Positions 23,856 to 33,522 of a DNA stretch of 64,000 nt are shown piece after piece. Under the pieces are notes generated by a model, which saw nothing but the letters and a program-made list of their open reading frames with translations, was not told the origin of the DNA and ran no database searches. The stretch comes from Phycisphaerae bacterium. GTDB lineage: Bacteria > Planctomycetota > Phycisphaerae > UBA1845 > PWPN01. Both the position numbers and the translations under genes were made by a program. Each line of letters begins with the position of its first letter. The stretch's first letter is position 1. Location: positions 1 through 64,000 of the forward strand of contig JAGNEZ010000019.1 in NCBI GenBank assembly GCA_018003015.1. The letters are read 5' to 3'.

Positions 23856-24083
23856 TCAACCTGCATGCTGGGCCAGCCAGGCACGGGCGAAACACCAGTC
23901 GTGCCCCACGGAGGCCCGGGACGCGCCGAGCAGCGCGGCAATCTGATCCGTGGTCAGCCTACCCACTAATCGCAGACGAGCGATGCAGGCCTTCCGAGGA
24001 TCGAGTCGCTCCAGTTCGTTGAGCGCGTTCCGGAGCGGATCGGTCGCTCCTGAAGCCGGGTTGGTCACCTGTGACGGGACCAT
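23856..24083 (-). CDS. Stand-alone sigma-70 region-4 protein
   Basis: The 75-residue product contains ELERLDPRKACIARLRL followed by TTDQIAALLGASRASVGHDW and FARAWL, which aligns along its length with the C-terminal region 4 of the full-length sigma factor encoded divergently at 24208. It lacks region 2, which binds core polymerase and the -10 box. The ATG at 24081-24083 has AGGAG 7 bases upstream, so it looks translatable; an upstream GTG at 24122 would add 13 residues. It could be a relic of a duplicated sigma gene or a small DNA-binding protein competing at -35 elements. Neither can be decided from sequence. Confidence 0.6.
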   Translation of the reverse strand: MVPSQVTNPASGATDPLRNALNELERLDPRKACIARLRLVGRLTTDQIAALLGASRASVGHDWCFARAWLAQHAG

Positions 24084-24129
24084 CGAGGGCTCCTGTCGAT
24101 CTGTCGTCTCGGCACGCGGCACCCGCCGT

Positions 24130-24934: not shown

Positions 24935-24963
24935 TTGACATGGTCGATGCCTCCTTATAGGCT
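24935..24963 (+). promoter_or_regulatory. Putative promoter of the rex-hyd operon
   Basis: TTGACA at 24935-24940 is a perfect -35 box; a 17-base spacer leads to TAGGCT at 24958-24963, a weak -10. TATAGG two bases earlier is an alternative with a short spacer. A Rex-type operator overlaps the end of the -10 box, so binding would block polymerase. Confidence 0.45.
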
Positions 24964-24979
24964 GTGATAAGATTCACAG
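24962..24979 (+). promoter_or_regulatory. Rex operator 1
   Basis: CTGTGATAAGATTCACAG is an inverted repeat with TGTGA-N6-TCACA, the spacing of the known Rex site (TTGTGAA-N4-TTCACAA). It sits at the promoter of the gene that encodes Rex itself and heads the hydrogenase operon. CRP sites share this geometry, but no CRP-like gene is in the window. Confidence 0.72.
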
Positions 24980-24995
24980 CGTGATGAATGTCACA
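24980..24995 (+). promoter_or_regulatory. Rex operator 2 (degenerate)
   Basis: CGTGATGAATGTCACA repeats the GTGA-N6-TCAC pattern with its centre 17 bases after the centre of operator 1, roughly one and a half helical turns. It covers the possible upstream starts GTG 24981 and ATG 24984 of rex, which supports ATG 25011 as the real start. Confidence 0.5.
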
Positions 24996-25010
24996 GGTGG
25001 ACGTCGGATT

Positions 25011-25679
25011 ATGAACTTGGTGGATCGCTCCACAGGGGGTTTCGCTACGAGGAAGGTCGTCAAGAGGCTGAGTGTCTATCGCCGCCTGCTGGAACGGATC
25101 GGCCAAGCCGGAGCCAAGAACGTGTTCTCCCACGACTTGGCCGCCCAAGCCGGGGTGACCGCCGCCCAGGTCCGGCGTGACCTGATGACCATCGGCTTCT
25201 CCGGCAGCCCGTCGCGGGGCTACGACGTCTCGCGATTGGTGGAGAAGATCGGCCACTACTTGGACGCGCCCCAGTGGCAATCGGTTGTGCTGGTTGGTGT
25301 CGGACATGTGGGACAGGCGTTGCTGGCCTACTTTAGCGGACGCGGTCCCCATCTGGCGATTACCGGAGCCTTCGACGCCGATCCTGGAAAGGTCAACCGG
25401 GTTATTCAGGGATGCCGGTGCTATCCGGTCGATGACATGGAAGATCGTGTGCGCCAGCTGGGGGCCGAAGTAGGCGTTATTGCGGTCCCGGGGGACGCGG
25501 CGCAACACGCGGCTCTGCAGTTGGTGCGCGGCGGGGTGCGCGGGATCTTGAATTTCGCCCCAACCCACCTGCGCGTGCCCGAATACGTGTACGTAGAAAA
25601 CGTGGACATCACCGTGCTGTTGGAAAGGGTGGCTTTCTTCGCACGGCAAGGTTCTTTGGACAAGGAAGTTGTCAGATGA
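25011..25679 (+). CDS. rex: Redox-sensing transcriptional repressor Rex
   Basis: The 222-residue protein has an N-terminal winged helix (about 1-80) with RLSVYRRLLERIG, AGVTAAQVRRDL and FSGSPSRGYDV, and a Rossmann domain with VLVGVGHVGQAL that binds NADH/NAD+. The C-terminal swap helix contains ENVDITVLLERVAFF. Rex represses fermentative and hydrogenase genes until NADH accumulates. AGGTGG lies 10 bases before ATG 25011; upstream GTG/ATG codons would fall within operator 2. Its stop overlaps the hydC start as ATGA, so repressor and hydrogenase are translated together and the operon is probably autoregulated. Confidence 0.93.
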   Translation: MNLVDRSTGGFATRKVVKRLSVYRRLLERIGQAGAKNVFSHDLAAQAGVTAAQVRRDLMTIGFSGSPSRGYDVSRLVEKIGHYLDAPQWQSVVLVGVGHVGQALLAYFSGRGPHLAITGAFDADPGKVNRVIQGCRCYPVDDMEDRVRQLGAEVGVIAVPGDAAQHAALQLVRGGVRGILNFAPTHLRVPEYVYVENVDITVLLERVAFFARQGSLDKEVVR

Positions 25680-26152
25680 TCCAGGCGGACATTGAACCCA
25701 TTTTGGCCGAGTTCGGCGATGCCGGGCGCGATGCCCTGATCCCGATCCTGCAGGCGGTGCAAGATCGTCACGGGTATCTCTCGCGCGAGACGATGGAACA
25801 GATCGGTCGACACTTGACTCTGCCGGTCAGCAAGGTCTACGGCGTGGCGACGTTCTACAACCAGTTCCGGTTCCAGCCGCGCGGCAAGTTCCATATCCAG
25901 GTGTGCCGAGGCACGGCCTGTCACGTGAAGGGCTCGGCCAAGGTGCTGGACGCGATCAAGCAGTCCCTCAAGGTGGAACCCGGCCAGACAACGAAGGACG
26001 GGATGTTCAGCCTCGAAGTCGTGGCCTGCGTGGGTGCCTGCGGGCTGGCGCCGGTCATTTGCGTCAATGGCGAGTTTCACGCCGGCGTCACGCCGGAGGG
26101 TGCGACCAAAATCGTGAGTTCGTATCGCAGAAAGGCGACAGACAATGGCTGA
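25676..26152 (+). CDS. hydC: NAD-linked [FeFe]-hydrogenase subunit HydC (NuoE-like)
   Basis: The 158-residue product is a NuoE-type thioredoxin-fold [2Fe-2S] protein. The N-terminal helices (RDALIPILQAVQDRHGYLS) and VYGVATFYNQFRFQP are typical. Cluster ligands lie in CRGTACHVKG and CVGACGLAP (C-x4-C and C-x3-C). In the trimeric enzyme it passes electrons between the FMN subunit and the other Fe-S centres. It overlaps rex by 4 bases and hydB by 8. HndA is the name used for the NADP-linked homologue; cofactor preference is not shown by the sequence. Confidence 0.9.
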   Translation: MIQADIEPILAEFGDAGRDALIPILQAVQDRHGYLSRETMEQIGRHLTLPVSKVYGVATFYNQFRFQPRGKFHIQVCRGTACHVKGSAKVLDAIKQSLKVEPGQTTKDGMFSLEVVACVGACGLAPVICVNGEFHAGVTPEGATKIVSSYRRKATDNG

Positions 26153-28145
26153 GCCTACGTGTGCGGGTGGATCGTGTGGTTGCCATGCTGGCGCGCAGGA
26201 GGCCGGCGGTCAGCCGGGCCTGGCCGCCTTTCTGACCCAGCCCCCTGGCAGTGGCAACGGCAAGAAGAGTGCGTTGTTCAGCGGCGAGCGGCTGGCCCAG
26301 CTGCGGCGCGAGGCGATCGCCCGGCCGGTCATGTACATCGGGGCGGGGACCTGCGGCCTGGGCGCCGGCGCCGCCAAGACGCTGGCCGCGGTGAAGCAGT
26401 ACCTGGCCGATCACAAGCTCGAGGCCGACATCGTCGAGGTGGGATGCATCGGCTACTGCTCCGCCGAACCGCTGCTGGACGTGCAGTTGCCCGGCCGAAC
26501 GCGGGTGTCCTTCCAGAAGATCAGCGAGGACAAGGTGGTCGGCCTGCTGGATTCGGTGTTCGCCGGCCGCGCGCCCGCAGACCTGTCGCTGGGGCAGTTC
26601 CGTTCTGAGCAACAGAAGCCCTGGGCAGACGTACCCTTCATCGACGAGCACCCTTTCTTTGCCCCGCAGATGCGTTGGGTGCTGGCCAACTGCGGCATGA
26701 TCGATCCCAACTCGATCGATGAGTACCTCGCCCGCGGCGGCTACCGGGCGTTCGCCCAGGTCGTCGGCACGATGACCCGCGAAGAGGTGTGCGAGGCGGT
26801 GGAGAAAAGCGGGCTTCGCGGACGTGGCGGCGGCGGATTCCCCACCGGCACGAAGTGGAAGTTCGCCCTGAAGACCCAGGGCGATCAAAAGTACCTGGTG
26901 TGCAACGCGGACGAGGGCGACCCTGGGGCGTTCATGGACCGGGCGGTGATCGAGGGCGATCCGCACCGCGTGCTCGAGGGCATGGCCATCGCCGCCTACG
27001 CGATCGGAGCGAACAAGGCGTATGTGTACATCCGGGCCGAGTACCCCCTGGCCATTCAGCGGCTCGTCCAGGCCATCGAGCAGGCCAAGAAGTACGGCCT
27101 GCTCGGGGACGACATCCTGGGCAGCGGCTTCAGTCTGAAGGTTATCATCAAGCAGGGTGCCGGGGCATTCGTGTGCGGCGAGGAAACCGCTCTCATTCAC
27201 AGCATCGAAGGCAAGCGGGGCATGCCACGACCGCGTCCGCCCTTCCCGGCGGTCAAGGGCCTGTTCGGCAAGCCCACGGTGATCAACAACGTCGAGACGC
27301 TGGCGAACCTACCCAGCCTGCTGAGCGGCGGATGGGAGAAGTTCGCCGCGGTGGGCACCTCGAAGAGCAAGGGCACGAAAGTCTTCGCCCTGTCGGGCAA
27401 GGTCAACCGCACCGGCCTGATCGAAGTGGCGATGGGCACCACCGTCCGCAAGATCGTGTTCGACATTGGTGGCGGCATCCCGAACGGCAAGGCCTACAAG
27501 GCAGCCCAGATGGGTGGACCGTCCGGGGGGTGCATTCCCGCCTCACAGGTCGACGTTGAGATCGACTACGAGTCGCTCAAGGCCCTCGGAGCGATGATGG
27601 GCTCCGGAGGTCTGGTCATCATGGATGAAGAAACCTGCATGGTCGACATCGCCAAGTTCTTTATGGACTTCATCCAGCGCGAGAGCTGCGGCAAGTGCGT
27701 GCCCTGCCGCGAGGGCACCCGCCGGATGCTCGAGATCCTGCAGAGCATCTCGCGCGCCCGCCGCAACGAAACCAAGATCCAGGCCCTCGAACGATTCAAG
27801 AGCGTGATGTACCTGACCCGCCTCGCCGAAGTCATCAAGGACACGAGCCTGTGCGGCCTGGGCCAGTCGGCTCCAAACCCGGTGCTGAGCACGCTGAGGT
27901 GGTTCCGGGACGAATATGATGCCCACGTCTACGAACGCAATTGCCCGGCCGGAGCCTGCCGCGAGCTCCTGCTCTACCGCATCGACGCCGAGCTGTGCCG
28001 GGGTTGCGGGCTGTGCGCCAAGAAGTGCCCGGCCGAGGCCATCATGGGCGCCCCCAAGAGCCCCCACTACATCGTTCCAGACAAGTGTATCGGTTGCGGC
28101 ACCTGCGAGGATGTCTGCCGTTTCGAGGCCGTCAAGACGGAGTAA
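26145..28145 (+). CDS. hydB: NAD-linked [FeFe]-hydrogenase subunit HydB (NuoF-like, FMN and Fe-S)
   Basis: The 666-residue flavoprotein has an N-terminal thioredoxin-like [2Fe-2S] domain (GTCGLGAGA, VGCIGYCSAEP), a NuoF core with the nucleotide and FMN motif LRGRGGGGFPTGTKW and NADEGDPGAFMDR, the [4Fe-4S] binding ESCGKCVPCREG with SLCGLGQ, and a C-terminal ferredoxin with two [4Fe-4S] motifs, CRGCGLCAKKCPAEA and CIGCGTCEDVC. This is the HydB/HndC layout in which FMN exchanges electrons with NAD(P)H and, in bifurcating enzymes, ferredoxin. Unusual is the extra cysteine group CAGGSCGC at residues 6-13. Bifurcation is known for relatives, not proven here. Confidence 0.92.
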   Translation: MAEPTCAGGSCGCHAGAQEAGGQPGLAAFLTQPPGSGNGKKSALFSGERLAQLRREAIARPVMYIGAGTCGLGAGAAKTLAAVKQYLADHKLEADIVEVGCIGYCSAEPLLDVQLPGRTRVSFQKISEDKVVGLLDSVFAGRAPADLSLGQFRSEQQKPWADVPFIDEHPFFAPQMRWVLANCGMIDPNSIDEYLARGGYRAFAQVVGTMTREEVCEAVEKSGLRGRGGGGFPTGTKWKFALKTQGDQKYLVCNADEGDPGAFMDRAVIEGDPHRVLEGMAIAAYAIGANKAYVYIRAEYPLAIQRLVQAIEQAKKYGLLGDDILGSGFSLKVIIKQGAGAFVCGEETALIHSIEGKRGMPRPRPPFPAVKGLFGKPTVINNVETLANLPSLLSGGWEKFAAVGTSKSKGTKVFALSGKVNRTGLIEVAMGTTVRKIVFDIGGGIPNGKAYKAAQMGGPSGGCIPASQVDVEIDYESLKALGAMMGSGGLVIMDEETCMVDIAKFFMDFIQRESCGKCVPCREGTRRMLEILQSISRARRNETKIQALERFKSVMYLTRLAEVIKDTSLCGLGQSAPNPVLSTLRWFRDEYDAHVYERNCPAGACRELLLYRIDAELCRGCGLCAKKCPAEAIMGAPKSPHYIVPDKCIGCGTCEDVCRFEAVKTE

Positions 28146-28160
28146 GGCGAGGATCATTCG

Positions 28161-29882
28161 GTGATTACGATCGAAGTCAATAACAAGAAGGTCCAGGCCG
28201 AACCTGGTGAAATGCTGCTGGCCACCCTGCGCCGGGCCGGGATCAAGGTGCCGACCCTGTGCCATATTGACGGGTTGCCGCCCAGCGGCGCCTGCCGGAT
28301 GTGCGACGTGGAGGTCGAAGGCCGGCCCAACCTGCAACCCAGCTGCGCGACCCCGGTGGTCGAAGGAATGAAGGTCCAGACGCACTCGCCCCGGGCGGTT
28401 CGAGCCCGGAAGACGATCGTCGAGCTGCTTCTGGCCAACCATCCCGACGACTGCCTCTACTGTGTGCGAAACAACAACTGCCAGCTCCAGGACCTGGCCG
28501 CCGAACTGGGCGTCCGAGACCGGCGCTACCAGGGCCAGCGGGGCCAGGCCAACGTCGACCTGTCCAGCCCCTCCATTGTCCGCGATCCGGAGAAGTGCAT
28601 CCTGTGCGGCAAGTGCGTGCGGGTCTGCGAAGAGGTCCAGGCCGTCTCGGCCATCGACTTCGTCGGGCGGGGCAGCAAGACCCGGGTCGGCACGGCGTTC
28701 GAGCAAGGGCTCAATATCTCGAGCTGCATCAACTGCGGGCAATGCATCATGATCTGCCCGACCGGCGCGCTCCGCGAGCAGAGCAGCATCAAGGAGGTCA
28801 CCGAGGCCCTCAAGGACCCGAACATGTTCGTCGTCGTCCAGCATGCTCCGTCGGTCTCGGTCTCGCTGGCCGAGGAGTTCGGCGTGAAGCCCGGCACGGA
28901 CATTTGCGGAGCGATGGTCACCGCTCTCCGGCAGCTCGGCTTCAAACGGGTGTTCGACACCTCGTTCAGCGCCGACCTGACCATCATGGAGGAGGCCTCT
29001 GAGCTGGTGCATCGGGTGAAGAACGGGGGCAAGCTTCCCATGCTGACCAGCTGCTCACCCGGCTGGATCAAATTCGTCGAGCAGACCTACCCGGACTTAC
29101 TCGAGAACGTCTCGACCTGCAAGAGTCCGCAGCAGATGATGGGTGCGGTCATCAAATCCTTCTTCGCCCAGCGGGAAGGGATCGATCCGAAGAAGATCTT
29201 CAGCGTCTCGATCATGCCGTGCACGGCCAAGAAGTTCGAGGCCCGGCGTCCCGAGATGGGCCGGGATGAGATCGCGGACGTCGACGCGGTTCTCACCACC
29301 CGCGAACTGGCCCGCATGATCCGCATGCGCGGCATCGACCTCGAGTCCTTGGCACCTGAGCCGGCGGATACGCCGTTCGGCGAGCGGAGCACGGCCGGCA
29401 AGCTCTTTGGAGCGACCGGCGGCGTGATGGAGGCGGCCATCCGTACGGCGTACCATCTCATCACCGGCAAGGAAATGGCTGATCTGAAGGTCCAGGCGGT
29501 GCGCGGCTTGAAGGGCACCAAGGAGGCCCGTGTCAATGTCGATGGCATGGACATCGGCGTCGCGGTGGTCAGCGGCCTGGGCAACGCGGCTCGGCTGCTG
29601 AACGAAATCCGCGACGGCCGTCGTGATCTGCACTTCATCGAGGTCATGACCTGCCCCGGCGGCTGCATCGCGGGCGGCGGCCAGCCGACCAGCACCGACA
29701 CCGACGCGGTTCGAGCCCGGATGCAGGCACTGTACAATATCGATCGAAACGAGCCGATCAGGACTTCGCACGCCAACGAGTCCATCAAACGGCTCTACAA
29801 GGAGTATCTGGGCGCGCCGCTGGGTGAAAAAAGCCATCACCTGCTGCACACCCACTATCACAAACGCGAGGTGGTAGCCTGA
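28161..29882 (+). CDS. hydA: [FeFe] hydrogenase catalytic subunit HydA (M3 type)
   Basis: The 573-residue subunit starts at GTG 28161. In order it has a [2Fe-2S] domain (C34, C45, C48, C62), a His-ligated [4Fe-4S] (H94, C98, C101, C107), two [4Fe-4S] clusters (C146-C156, C189-C199), the H-cluster domain and a small-subunit-like tail. H-cluster motifs are LTSCSPGW (C298), IMPCTAKKFE (C354) and EVMTCPGGCIAGGGQP (C498, C502). The first motif has Ser where many enzymes have a second Cys; this variant is, from memory, common in NAD(P)-linked members. The enzyme interconverts protons and H2 in the cytoplasm as part of HydABC. No export signal is present. Confidence 0.94.
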   Translation: MITIEVNNKKVQAEPGEMLLATLRRAGIKVPTLCHIDGLPPSGACRMCDVEVEGRPNLQPSCATPVVEGMKVQTHSPRAVRARKTIVELLLANHPDDCLYCVRNNNCQLQDLAAELGVRDRRYQGQRGQANVDLSSPSIVRDPEKCILCGKCVRVCEEVQAVSAIDFVGRGSKTRVGTAFEQGLNISSCINCGQCIMICPTGALREQSSIKEVTEALKDPNMFVVVQHAPSVSVSLAEEFGVKPGTDICGAMVTALRQLGFKRVFDTSFSADLTIMEEASELVHRVKNGGKLPMLTSCSPGWIKFVEQTYPDLLENVSTCKSPQQMMGAVIKSFFAQREGIDPKKIFSVSIMPCTAKKFEARRPEMGRDEIADVDAVLTTRELARMIRMRGIDLESLAPEPADTPFGERSTAGKLFGATGGVMEAAIRTAYHLITGKEMADLKVQAVRGLKGTKEARVNVDGMDIGVAVVSGLGNAARLLNEIRDGRRDLHFIEVMTCPGGCIAGGGQPTSTDTDAVRARMQALYNIDRNEPIRTSHANESIKRLYKEYLGAPLGEKSHHLLHTHYHKREVVA

Positions 29883-29892
29883 GGACAACGGG

Positions 29893-31899
29893 TTGCGGCA
29901 CACGGATGACATTCCGCTCGTCACCACCATTCGGGAGCACTGTCGCGTCTGCTACACGTGCGTGCGCGAATGTCCCGCCAAGGCCATTCGAATCAGCGAG
30001 GGCCAGGCGGAAGTGCTCCACGAACGGTGTATCGGGTGCGGCAACTGTGTACGGGTGTGCAGCCAGAATGCCAAGCAGGTGCAGACCAGCATCCCGGCCG
30101 TCGACGTTCTGCTGGCGAGCGGGGCGAAGGTGGCCGCCTGCCTGGCTCCGAGCTTCCCCGCGGAGTTCGACGACATCGAATACCGCCGGCTGGTCGGCAT
30201 GCTCCGGTCGCTTGGCTTCCAACTGGTCGTAGAGACGGCCTTCGGCGCAGACCTGGTGGCCGATCGCTACCGGCGGCTCTTTGAGGAAGACCACAGCCGG
30301 CGGTACATTGCCACGAGTTGCCCGGCGATCGTGGGCTACGTGGAGCGCTACCATCCCAACCTGGTGGGATCATTGGCCCCGATCGTCTCGCCGATGATCG
30401 CCACCGCCCGGGCGCTCCGGCACCTGCACGGGTCCGAGCTGAAGGTGGTGTTTATCGGGCCGTGCATCGCCAAGAAGGGCGAGGCCGGGACGCAGGAGGT
30501 CGAGGGCGAGGTCGATGCCGTCCTGACCTTCGTGGAACTGCGGGCGATGCTCCGCCTGCACGGGGTCAGCCCGCTGTCGGTGAACGGATCGGAGTTTGAT
30601 CCGCCTCACGCGGGGACCGGAGCCCTGTTCGCGATCAGCCGGGGCATGCTCCAGGCCGCCGGCATGAGCGAGGATCTGGCCGTCGGAGAAGTGGTTTCGG
30701 CGGACGGCCGGGACGGCTTTGTGGACGCGATCAAGGAGTTCGAGGCGGGGGATCTGGACGCCCGGCTGCTCGAGGTACTGTGCTGCAAGGGCTGCATCAT
30801 GGGCGCCGGGATGAGCAGCCAGTTACCGCTGTTCAATCGTCGGTCGTGCGTGAGCCACTACGTGCGGCACCGATTGAAGACGCTCGATCCGGGGGCGGCG
30901 AAGGCCGAGCTGGCCCGGTTCGCCAACCTGGACTTGAGCCGCGTCTACCAGCTGAACGACCAGCGGGTGGCGTCACCCTCGCTGGTGGAGCTCCAGGCGA
31001 TCCTGGAGCGGATCGGCAAGCGCCGCCCGGAAGACGAACTGAACTGCGGGGCCTGCGGGTATGAAACCTGTCGCGAGCACGCGGTGGCGATCCACAAGGG
31101 CCTCGCCGAAAGCGAGATGTGTCTGCCCTACACCATCGACCGCCTGCGGAGAGTGGTGGACAAGCTGGCCATCTCGCACCAGGAGCTGGCCAGCGCTCGC
31201 GAAGCCCTCACCCACTCGGAGAAACTGGCGAGCATGGGGCAGCTGGCCGCGGGCATCGCCCACGAGCTCAATAACCCCCTGGGTGTGGTGATCATGTTCG
31301 CCCACCTGCTTCTGGAAGAGATCGGCAAGGACGGCAAGAGCCGCGAAGACCTGCAGACGATCGTGGAAAACGCCGACCGCTGCAAGAAGATCGTCTCCGG
31401 CCTACTGCACTTCGCCCGCCAGAACAAGGTGACGCTTGCTCCGACCGACCTTCATGAACTGGTCGATCGGGTGGTTCGAACGCTGGTGGTACCGGAGAAC
31501 GTCACCCTGCGGGTCGAACACGAGCACGAGGAAGAAAACGCCGACGTGGATCGGGACCAGATCGCCCAGATCCTGACCAATCTGGTCAGCAATGCCCAGG
31601 CGGCCATGCCCGAGGGGGGTACACTCACCATCCAGACCGGCGGCGACGAGAAAAACATCCAGCTCAAGGTGGCCGACGCCGGCGTCGGCATCAGCCCGGA
31701 GAACCGAGCCAAGATCTTCGACCCGTTCTTCACCACGAAGGGCGTGGGCAAGGGCACCGGACTGGGTCTGGCGGTAACCTACGGCATCGTGAAGATGCAC
31801 CGCGGCCAGATCAGCCTGGAATCGAACGATCAGCCGGCCAAAGGGCCGACGGGGACGACTTTCACCGTGGTGCTGCCTCGACAGGCGGCCAGAGGCTAG
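29893..31899 (+). CDS. [FeFe]-hydrogenase-like sensor histidine kinase fusion
   Basis: The 668-residue protein starts at TTG 29893, with GAGGA overlapping the hydA stop. It has two [4Fe-4S] motifs (C17-C27, C46-C56), a hydrogenase large-subunit domain with reduced motifs [10 protein letters not shown] (C143), [11 protein letters not shown] (C191) and [14 protein letters not shown] (C297, C298, C301), then an Fe-S domain of PF04060 type, CGACGYETC with C410, and a full histidine kinase: H-box AHELNNPLG (H457), then ATPase motifs near [13 protein letters not shown] and GTGLGLAV. The pattern matches the putative sensory (group C/D) hydrogenases. It probably senses H2 or redox state and phosphorylates the receivers encoded next. 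Confidence 0.88.
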
Positions 31900-31946: not shown

Positions 31947-32333
31947 ATGGCAACGAAGATTCTTGTGGTGGATGATGACATCGATTACCTCGCCCAGACC
32001 CAGGCCCAGCTCGAGGCCGCCGGGTTCGAGGTGACGACCGCCGAGACGGTCGACGCCGCTCGCGAGCTGATCGGCAAGCGGAAACCGGATCTGGCGGTCG
32101 TCGATCTGATGATGGAGAACTTCGACGACGGCTTCCGGCTCTGCCATGCCATCAAGAAAGCGGACGCGTCCATTCCGGTCATCCTGGTGACCGCGGTGGC
32201 CAGCGAGACCGGCATCGATTTCGACGCCTCGACCCAGGAAGAGCGATCCTGGATCAAGGCCGACGCGGTGCTGGACAAACCCATCCGCTTCGAGCAGCTG
32301 CAACGCGAAATTGATCGACTACTCCACAAGTGA
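31947..32333 (+). CDS. Stand-alone response regulator receiver
   Basis: This 128-residue CheY-like domain has acidic D9-D11, phosphoacceptor D53 in LAVVDLMMENFDD, VILVTAVAS and LDKPIRF with the conserved Lys. It lacks any output domain. An insertion around DFDASTQEERSWIKAD between strand 4 and strand 5 is longer than usual. Sitting 47 bases after the hydrogenase-like kinase and 7 before a receiver-kinase hybrid, it is the likely first phosphoryl acceptor of that sensor. The final target is not evident. Confidence 0.87.
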   Translation: MATKILVVDDDIDYLAQTQAQLEAAGFEVTTAETVDAARELIGKRKPDLAVVDLMMENFDDGFRLCHAIKKADASIPVILVTAVASETGIDFDASTQEERSWIKADAVLDKPIRFEQLQREIDRLLHK

Positions 32334-32340
32334 GCCGGCC

Positions 32341-33522
32341 ATGGAAAACCTGAAACTCCTGGTAACGGATGACGAGCGCGAGATGCGCCGAGCGGTTGAA
32401 CGCGCCTTGTCCGCGTACAGGGTGCGGCTTCCCGAGGTCGATGGTGAGGTCGGCTTCGTCGTGCAACAGGCCGCCAGCGGCGAGGAGGCCCTGGAGAAGA
32501 TCACCCAGAGCCCCCCGGACATCCTGCTCCTGGATTTCAAGATGGGCGGCATGACCGGACTCGACGTGCTGGACGCACTCGCCCACCAGGAGCGCGACAT
32601 GCTCACCGTCATGGTCACTGCCTACGCTTCCCTCGAGACCGCGGTGACCGCAACCAAGCGCGGGGCGTTCGATTTCATCGCCAAGCCGTTCACTCCGACC
32701 GAGTTGAAGGATACGATTCGCAAGGTCGCCAGCCACCTGATGGCCCAGCGGCAGGCCCGAACCCTCGCCCGCGAGAAACGCCAGGTCCGCTTCCAGTTCA
32801 TCTCCGTGCTGGCCCACGAGCTGAAGGCACCCCTGGGGGCAATCGAGGGCTACCTGAAAATCCTGGGAGACCCGAAGTTCCGAAGCGACCCGGGCGCGAT
32901 CGATCGAATGATCCAGCGGTGCTTGGTGCGCTCCGAGGCAATGAAGAAACTGATCTACGACCTGCTCGACCTGACCCGAATCGAGTCCGGCCAGAAGAGG
33001 CGCGAACTGGTCGAGGTCGATCTGGCCCAGGTGGCTCGCACCTCGATCGAGACACTCCGCCCGGACGCCGCGGCCCGGGGGATCACCATCGAACTGCATG
33101 TCGAAGGGACGCAGATCATGTCCGCCGACCGCGGCGAGATCGAGATTATTCTCAACAACCTGGTCTCCAACGCGGTGAAGTACAACCGGGACGGCGGACG
33201 AGTGGACGTTACCCTTGCCCAGGAGGGCGACTTCGAGATCCTCACCGTATCCGATACGGGCATCGGCATGACCGAGGAGGAGGCGGGCAAGCTCTTCAAC
33301 GACTTCGTCCGCATCAAGAACCGCAAGACCAAGAACGTTCTCGGCAGCGGCCTGGGGCTGTCGATCGTGAAGAAGCTAGCGATGCTGTACGGGGGTGCGG
33401 CCACGGTGGCCAGTACCCCCGACGTCGGCAGCACTTTCACCATCCGGCTCAGCCGGCAGTCCGCGATACCAACCGATGGCAATCACACGACAACACATCC
33501 TGCGGTGGCTGCGGGAGGATGA
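32341..33522 (+). CDS. Receiver-histidine kinase hybrid (REC N-terminal)
   Basis: The 393-residue protein has a receiver domain first (about 1-125, phosphoacceptor D65 in ILLLDFKMGG, Lys in IAKPF), then HisKA with VLAHELKAPLG (H159) and an ATPase domain with IILNNLVSNAVKYNRDGG, VSDTGIGM and GSGLGLSIVKKL. There are no membrane segments, so it acts in the cytoplasm. The order, receiver before kinase, suggests a kinase whose activity is set by phosphorylation of its own receiver, for example by the hydrogenase-like kinase. ATG 32341 is preferred over TTG 32311. Its end overlaps hydE by 47 bases. Confidence 0.87.
   Translation: MENLKLLVTDDEREMRRAVERALSAYRVRLPEVDGEVGFVVQQAASGEEALEKITQSPPDILLLDFKMGGMTGLDVLDALAHQERDMLTVMVTAYASLETAVTATKRGAFDFIAKPFTPTELKDTIRKVASHLMAQRQARTLAREKRQVRFQFISVLAHELKAPLGAIEGYLKILGDPKFRSDPGAIDRMIQRCLVRSEAMKKLIYDLLDLTRIESGQKRRELVEVDLAQVARTSIETLRPDAAARGITIELHVEGTQIMSADRGEIEIILNNLVSNAVKYNRDGGRVDVTLAQEGDFEILTVSDTGIGMTEEEAGKLFNDFVRIKNRKTKNVLGSGLGLSIVKKLAMLYGGAATVASTPDVGSTFTIRLSRQSAIPTDGNHTTTHPAVAAGG

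Follow-up and report, generated by a model that had tools for sequence, protein, structure and literature searches.

A predicted composite Rex operator with a fixed 17-bp spacing at rex-hydCBA operons of several bacterial phyla

Ahead of the rex gene in the 64-kb window (the whole stretch of DNA that was analysed), we identified two abutting predicted operators for the repressor Rex, which together make up a 33-bp element at the likely promoter of rex-hydCBA. This element very probably serves as a composite Rex operator, on which adjacent Rex dimers would repress rex-hydCBA until NADH rises, most probably in a cooperative manner. The same rigid pair precedes the same genes across phyla, which suggests, at the level of sequence, that two dimers bind as one unit. 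In the usual description, Rex acts as one dimer on one palindrome and has a broad regulon. One clade of Rex proteins seems to be devoted to one operon and to use a double site whose rigid arrangement is kept from phylum to phylum.

The predicted operator pair and its likely promoter

The features of the region are the following, all on the forward strand:

24935..24940, +, likely -35 element TTGACA, from the sequence and from the TTGAC-type -35 elements in most related loci
24958..24963, +, likely -10 element TAGGCT, 17 bp from the -35 element; weak, with 3 of 6 positions matching
24962..24979, +, predicted Rex operator 1, CTGTGATAAGATTCACAG; core at 24963-24978, an exact TGTGA-N6-TCACA
24979..24996, +, predicted Rex operator 2, GCGTGATGAATGTCACAG; core at 24980-24995, one mismatch to TGTGA-N6-TCACA
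24963..24995, +, predicted composite double operator of 33 bp, kept in 36 of 38 hydC-linked relatives and found once per genome
25011..25679, +, rex, probable NADH-responsive and autoregulated repressor (NF003995, PF06971, PF02629)
25676..26152, +, hydC, NuoE-like [2Fe-2S] subunit (PF01257), overlapping the rex stop codon; the conserved next gene
26145..28145, +, hydB, NuoF-like flavin subunit (PF01512, TIGR01959)
28161..29882, +, hydA, [FeFe] hydrogenase of group A6 (NF040763)

The two operators have base 24979 in common, and their cores are 17 bp apart, confirming an earlier note on this DNA that had described two GTGA-N6-TCAC sites with centres 17 bases apart. The window contains no other exact match to GTGA-N6-TCAC. 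Taken alone, a count of two is unremarkable and not significant, with 1.2 matches expected by chance in 64 kb; both sites, however, are adjacent and at one promoter. Operator 1 is the sole exact TGTGA-N6-TCACA in the 6.86-Mb genome, in which the composite is found once at up to two mismatches. Compared with the full Rex consensus, TTGTGA-N6-TCACAA, operators 1 and 2 deviate at two and three of the 12 positions, respectively, and at none and one in the core. The downstream genes match their families well: the rex product reaches 205 bits with NCBIfam NF003995 (cut-off 126), and the hydA product 856 bits with NF040763 (cut-off 765).

The TAGGCT element was not called as a -10 element by a generic promoter scan of the window; its counterpart in a sister species of the same genus reads TAGGTT. 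Most related loci carry a TTGAC-type -35 element, 16-18 nucleotides and then a TATAAT-like -10 element near the composite, with a mean of 2.4 mismatches of 12 versus 4.7 in shuffled sequence. The composite lies just 3′ of the -10 element, within 6 bp of its end in most related loci. In the window, the last bases of the likely -10 box (24958-24963) also belong to operator 1, from which we infer a transcription start near 24970, placing the composite at about -7 to +26. The first site had previously been thought to abut TTGACA; this was inexact, as TTGACA (24935-24940) ends 21 bp upstream and the site overlaps the end of the -10 element instead.

The sister species also bears on the translation start of rex. 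At operator 2 it has a one-nucleotide indel and an in-frame TGA, and GTG 24981 and ATG 24984 have no counterpart there, while ATG 25011 aligns opposite a GTG and TTG 25017 opposite an ATG. The lack of the two upstream start codons supports the start at 25011, just as the earlier note had proposed. Starts at 25017 or 25020 may be alternatives.

Conservation and specificity of the composite

We gathered relatives by Rex protein similarity alone and inspected their upstream regions afterwards. The composite was defined as TGTKA-N6-TMACA-NN-GTKA-N6-TMACA (33 bp), allowing up to three mismatches at the 20 constrained positions; loci were non-redundant, and hydC was counted as close at 55% identity or more. 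By this rule, 36 of 38 distinct loci with Rex preceding a close hydC have the composite, compared with one of 15 loci with a distant hydC. Named records with the composite belong to Planctomycetota, Hydrogenedentota, Sumerlaeota, Glassbacteria and, weakly, Myxococcota. A held-out set from Hydrogenedentota, fetched after the rule was stated, gave five new close-hydC loci, all five of which fit the composite.

When 35 loci were anchored on their best site, a partner was present at exactly +17 in 27 and at -17 in two more, whereas 300 shuffles yielded at most four partners at any offset and a mean of 0.12 at +17. Essentially all loci have a spacing of 17, although the pair lies at very different distances from the -10 element and the gene (offsets from -32 to -152). 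The logo of the composite, YTGTGAAnnnnnTCACAGCGTKAnnnnnnTCACAR, shows four conserved half-sites with free spacers; the outer half-sites are strong, and the inner left half of site 2 is often GTTA. The sister species follows the same pattern: operator 1 is identical, and the half-sites of operator 2 are kept with a spacer changed from TGAATG to GGCGTG. Two loci have a single site or none. On a tree with many unresolved deep branches, the composite is widespread in the hydrogenase-linked Rex clade, with several losses, and it is absent from a Hydrogenedentota subclade with the wing sequence GVPnSGY and a distant hydC. In five loci the pair is preceded, at a distance of 51-65 bp, by a third Rex-like site, located close to the -35 element or beyond it on the upstream side, which could allow looping in those loci; such a third site is absent from the window.

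The composite is also specific and essentially single-copy. Of 42 genomes that encode a Rex of this kind, 32 contain it at up to two mismatches, almost always as one copy located at rex, and the reversed pattern, used as a control, matched twice in the same 42 genomes. A search of 392 Planctomycetota genomes with at most one mismatch returned the composite in three, each time at rex-hyd, and the reversed control in none. Together, the match to Rex operators, the downstream rex-hyd genes and the conservation among relatives support what had been suggested from the window alone, that these are Rex-type sites at a rex-hyd promoter. The position of the predicted sites before rex itself, conserved in relatives, likewise implies the autoregulation suggested at that time.

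Single Rex-type sites with at most one mismatch occur at 64 places in the window genome versus 40 for the reversed pattern, and at 66 versus 35 in the sister genome. A small wider Rex regulon beyond rex-hyd may exist in the window genome. Among the matches listed as other Rex targets, those inspected looked like chance, and the most promising one lies within a NuoF-like gene, whose coding sequence continues across it.

The Rex protein and its likely reading of the site

The Rex protein of the window consists of an N-terminal winged-helix domain and a Rossmann domain with a GxGxxG motif (GVGHVG; PF06971, PF02629, NF003995) and aligns with the Rex structures 5zz5, 2vt2, 3keo and 3wg9. Its recognition helix, VRRD, keeps Arg48 (T. 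maritima numbering) and has an arginine at the position of Lys49, as in the B. subtilis and S. agalactiae Rex proteins. Wing residues Arg60 and Gly61 of T. maritima Rex touch the minor groove at the pair of T that precedes the G in the half-site (PMC8836258). The wing of the window Rex, GSPSRGY, has Pro-Ser in their place and a shifted arginine, and the same holds throughout the clade, with GSPxRGY versus the usual G(K/R)(R/K)GxGY; the Arg60-Gly61 pair is a contact detail of T. maritima and no requirement for membership of the Rex family. The inner positions of the composite, which are shared or crowded, are G-C, not T-T. By correlation, the changed wings may be what lets two Rex dimers abut. 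The Hydrogenedentota subclade without the composite is also missing the usual wing.

The half-sites vary together with the recognition helix. Rex proteins with VRRD are associated with 119 GTGA and 27 GTTA half-sites, those with VRQD with two GTGA and 10 GTTA (p = 8e-6 by half-site and 0.009 by locus), so that GTGA gives way to GTTA where Gln replaces Arg in the recognition helix. Since all three VRQD loci belong to a single clade, the covariation amounts to about one event, plus a parallel in T. ethanolicus, where a Rex with the recognition helix QIRQD has the site ATTGTTA-N6-TAACAAT (PMC5886521). This parallel argues for Rex as the likely reader of the composite and disfavours a CRP-type protein. 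The pairs VRRD/GTGA and VRQD/GTTA offer a natural series for how Rex reads DNA.

We propose that Rex made from the adjacent downstream gene would place two adjoining dimers across the end of the -10 element and the transcription start. At low NADH, the dimers would block RNA polymerase and keep rex-hydC-hydB-hydA off. As NADH rises, NADH-bound Rex would release the DNA, and the NADH-linked hydrogenase would be made; the release would also raise Rex itself, closing a feedback loop. Repression would be cooperative, in line with the steep repression that the earlier note envisaged, if the two dimers make contact or assist one another in some other way. The argument for such contact or assistance is that the spacing stays at 17 bp in loci whose distances to the -10 element and the gene differ, even though some other constraint could also fix the spacing. 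A spacing of 17 bp would place the dimers on roughly opposite faces of B-DNA, and contact would then be made through neighbouring DNA-binding domains. We also entertain, with the balance leaning somewhat against it, the broader idea that a Rex lineage at NADH-linked [FeFe] hydrogenase operons in Planctomycetota, Hydrogenedentota and other phyla recognises the 33-bp operator as a dimer of dimers, its changed wings letting the dimers abut. If true, such reading would be a new mode of Rex DNA recognition with switch-like NADH sensing.

Among the alternatives, two independent Rex sites without cooperation, spaced at 17 bp simply so that both have room after the -10 box and ahead of the remaining leader, are unlikely yet deserve consideration. 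Promoters with two active Rex sites are known, among them that of S. aureus ldh1, where two bands shift (PMC3544828), and the position of the composite just past the -10 element in most loci would suit such a fit. A mere fit would, however, permit spacings of 16, 18 or more, and exactly 17 is kept although the distances to the -10 element and the gene vary. That two palindromes fell together by chance has a vanishingly small probability: two GTGA-N6-TCAC sites per 64 kb are unremarkable alone, as two or more arose in 28 of 100 shuffles, but the conservation across phyla at a fixed spacing and the near-absence of the composite elsewhere refute a coincidence.

The other two alternatives dispense with Rex as the reader. 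The classic consensus of E. coli CRP is TGTGA-N6-TCACA, identical to that of the sites, and the window genome may encode proteins of the CRP/FNR family; binding by such a protein nevertheless appears very unlikely to us. In several phyla the composite goes together with a single Rex clade and the hydC operon of that clade, it covers the start, a position unsuited to an activator, and a half-site base tracks a recognition residue of Rex. Moreover, neither the position of an activator nor the linkage of a general regulon was found, the composite being single-copy and only at rex-hyd. It is highly improbable that the repeats act as RNA hairpins in the rex mRNA leader, not as DNA sites. Both sites would allow a 5-bp stem and a 6-nt loop to form, near or after the likely transcription start, but two of the five positions of the second hairpin are unpaired in 12 and 17 of 30 sequences, measures of covariation beyond what relatedness gives stay within those of shuffles, with no sign of compensatory changes, and an Rfam search gave no match. 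Cooperative repression by adjacent Rex dimers is the reading that we prefer.

Known Rex systems and neighbouring genes

Operators for Rex are already known, as are promoters with paired Rex sites and the control of FeFe hydrogenases by Rex. Gram-positive Rex operators (ROP, TTGTGAAnnnnTTCACAA) lie upstream of redox genes and of rex (PMC5355995) and have the same half-sites and the same 6-bp spacer as the window sites. They have been reported as single sites, as a single site with a half-site or as separated pairs, whereas the pair described here consists of two complete sites that share a base, with an invariant spacing of 17 bp. The S. aureus ldh1 promoter also has two Rex sites, with the transcription start within the proximal TGTGA repeat (PMC3544828); judging from promoter-deletion constructs, these are tens of bases apart and not abutting, and they serve lactate dehydrogenase, not a rex-hydrogenase operon. 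At the S. avermitilis cydA1 promoter, a full ROP and a half-site are similarly placed over the start, where protection extends from -3 to +25 and two bands are retarded (PMC5355995); a 28-nt footprint over one complete site and a half-site differs from the 33-bp double site here. Caldicellulosiruptor Rex resembles our case in its targets, as the DNA that it binds in vitro lies in front of rex and of FeFe hydrogenase genes (PMC6391272). It differs in its large regulon, its separate sites and its Rex lineage, and the text searched mentions no abutting pair. In the papers that we searched, mostly from outside subscription journals, we found neither an account of Rex acting at planctomycete hydrogenases nor one of two Rex sites that abut at a constant 17 bp, recur in several phyla and are restricted to a single operon. 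If the dimers cooperate, the cell would make this hydrogenase, which passes electrons from NADH into hydrogen, at a more sharply defined NADH level. The 33-bp pattern is also a ready rule for predicting NADH control in uncultured anaerobes.

Other Rex proteins and neighbouring genes show further arrangements. The window genome has a second Rex paralogue beside hemB and a gene for a zinc-ribbon protein, and no Rex-type sites were found in the region upstream of this paralogue. One relative has a Rex of a different lineage (VRKD, 33% identity) preceding hydC and hydB, with a single site, TTGTGAAATATTTCACT, abutting TTGACT. Just upstream of the rex promoter in the window lies an ECF sigma factor gene (TIGR02999, 24244-24801), and a short open reading frame on the other strand (23856-24122) is similar to the C-terminal portion of a further ECF sigma factor, of which it may be a remnant. 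Downstream of hydA, the gene at 29893-31899 encodes ferredoxin-like and [FeFe]-hydrogenase-type domains and an FeS motif fused to a histidine kinase (HisKA, HATPase), adjoined by response-regulator genes at 31947-32333 and 32311-33522; this set looks like a hydrogen-sensing two-component system. In two related genomes, two divergent rex genes flank one common intergenic region, one heading hydC and the other a hydrogenase-kinase fusion, with the composite on the kinase side and a single site on the hydC side.
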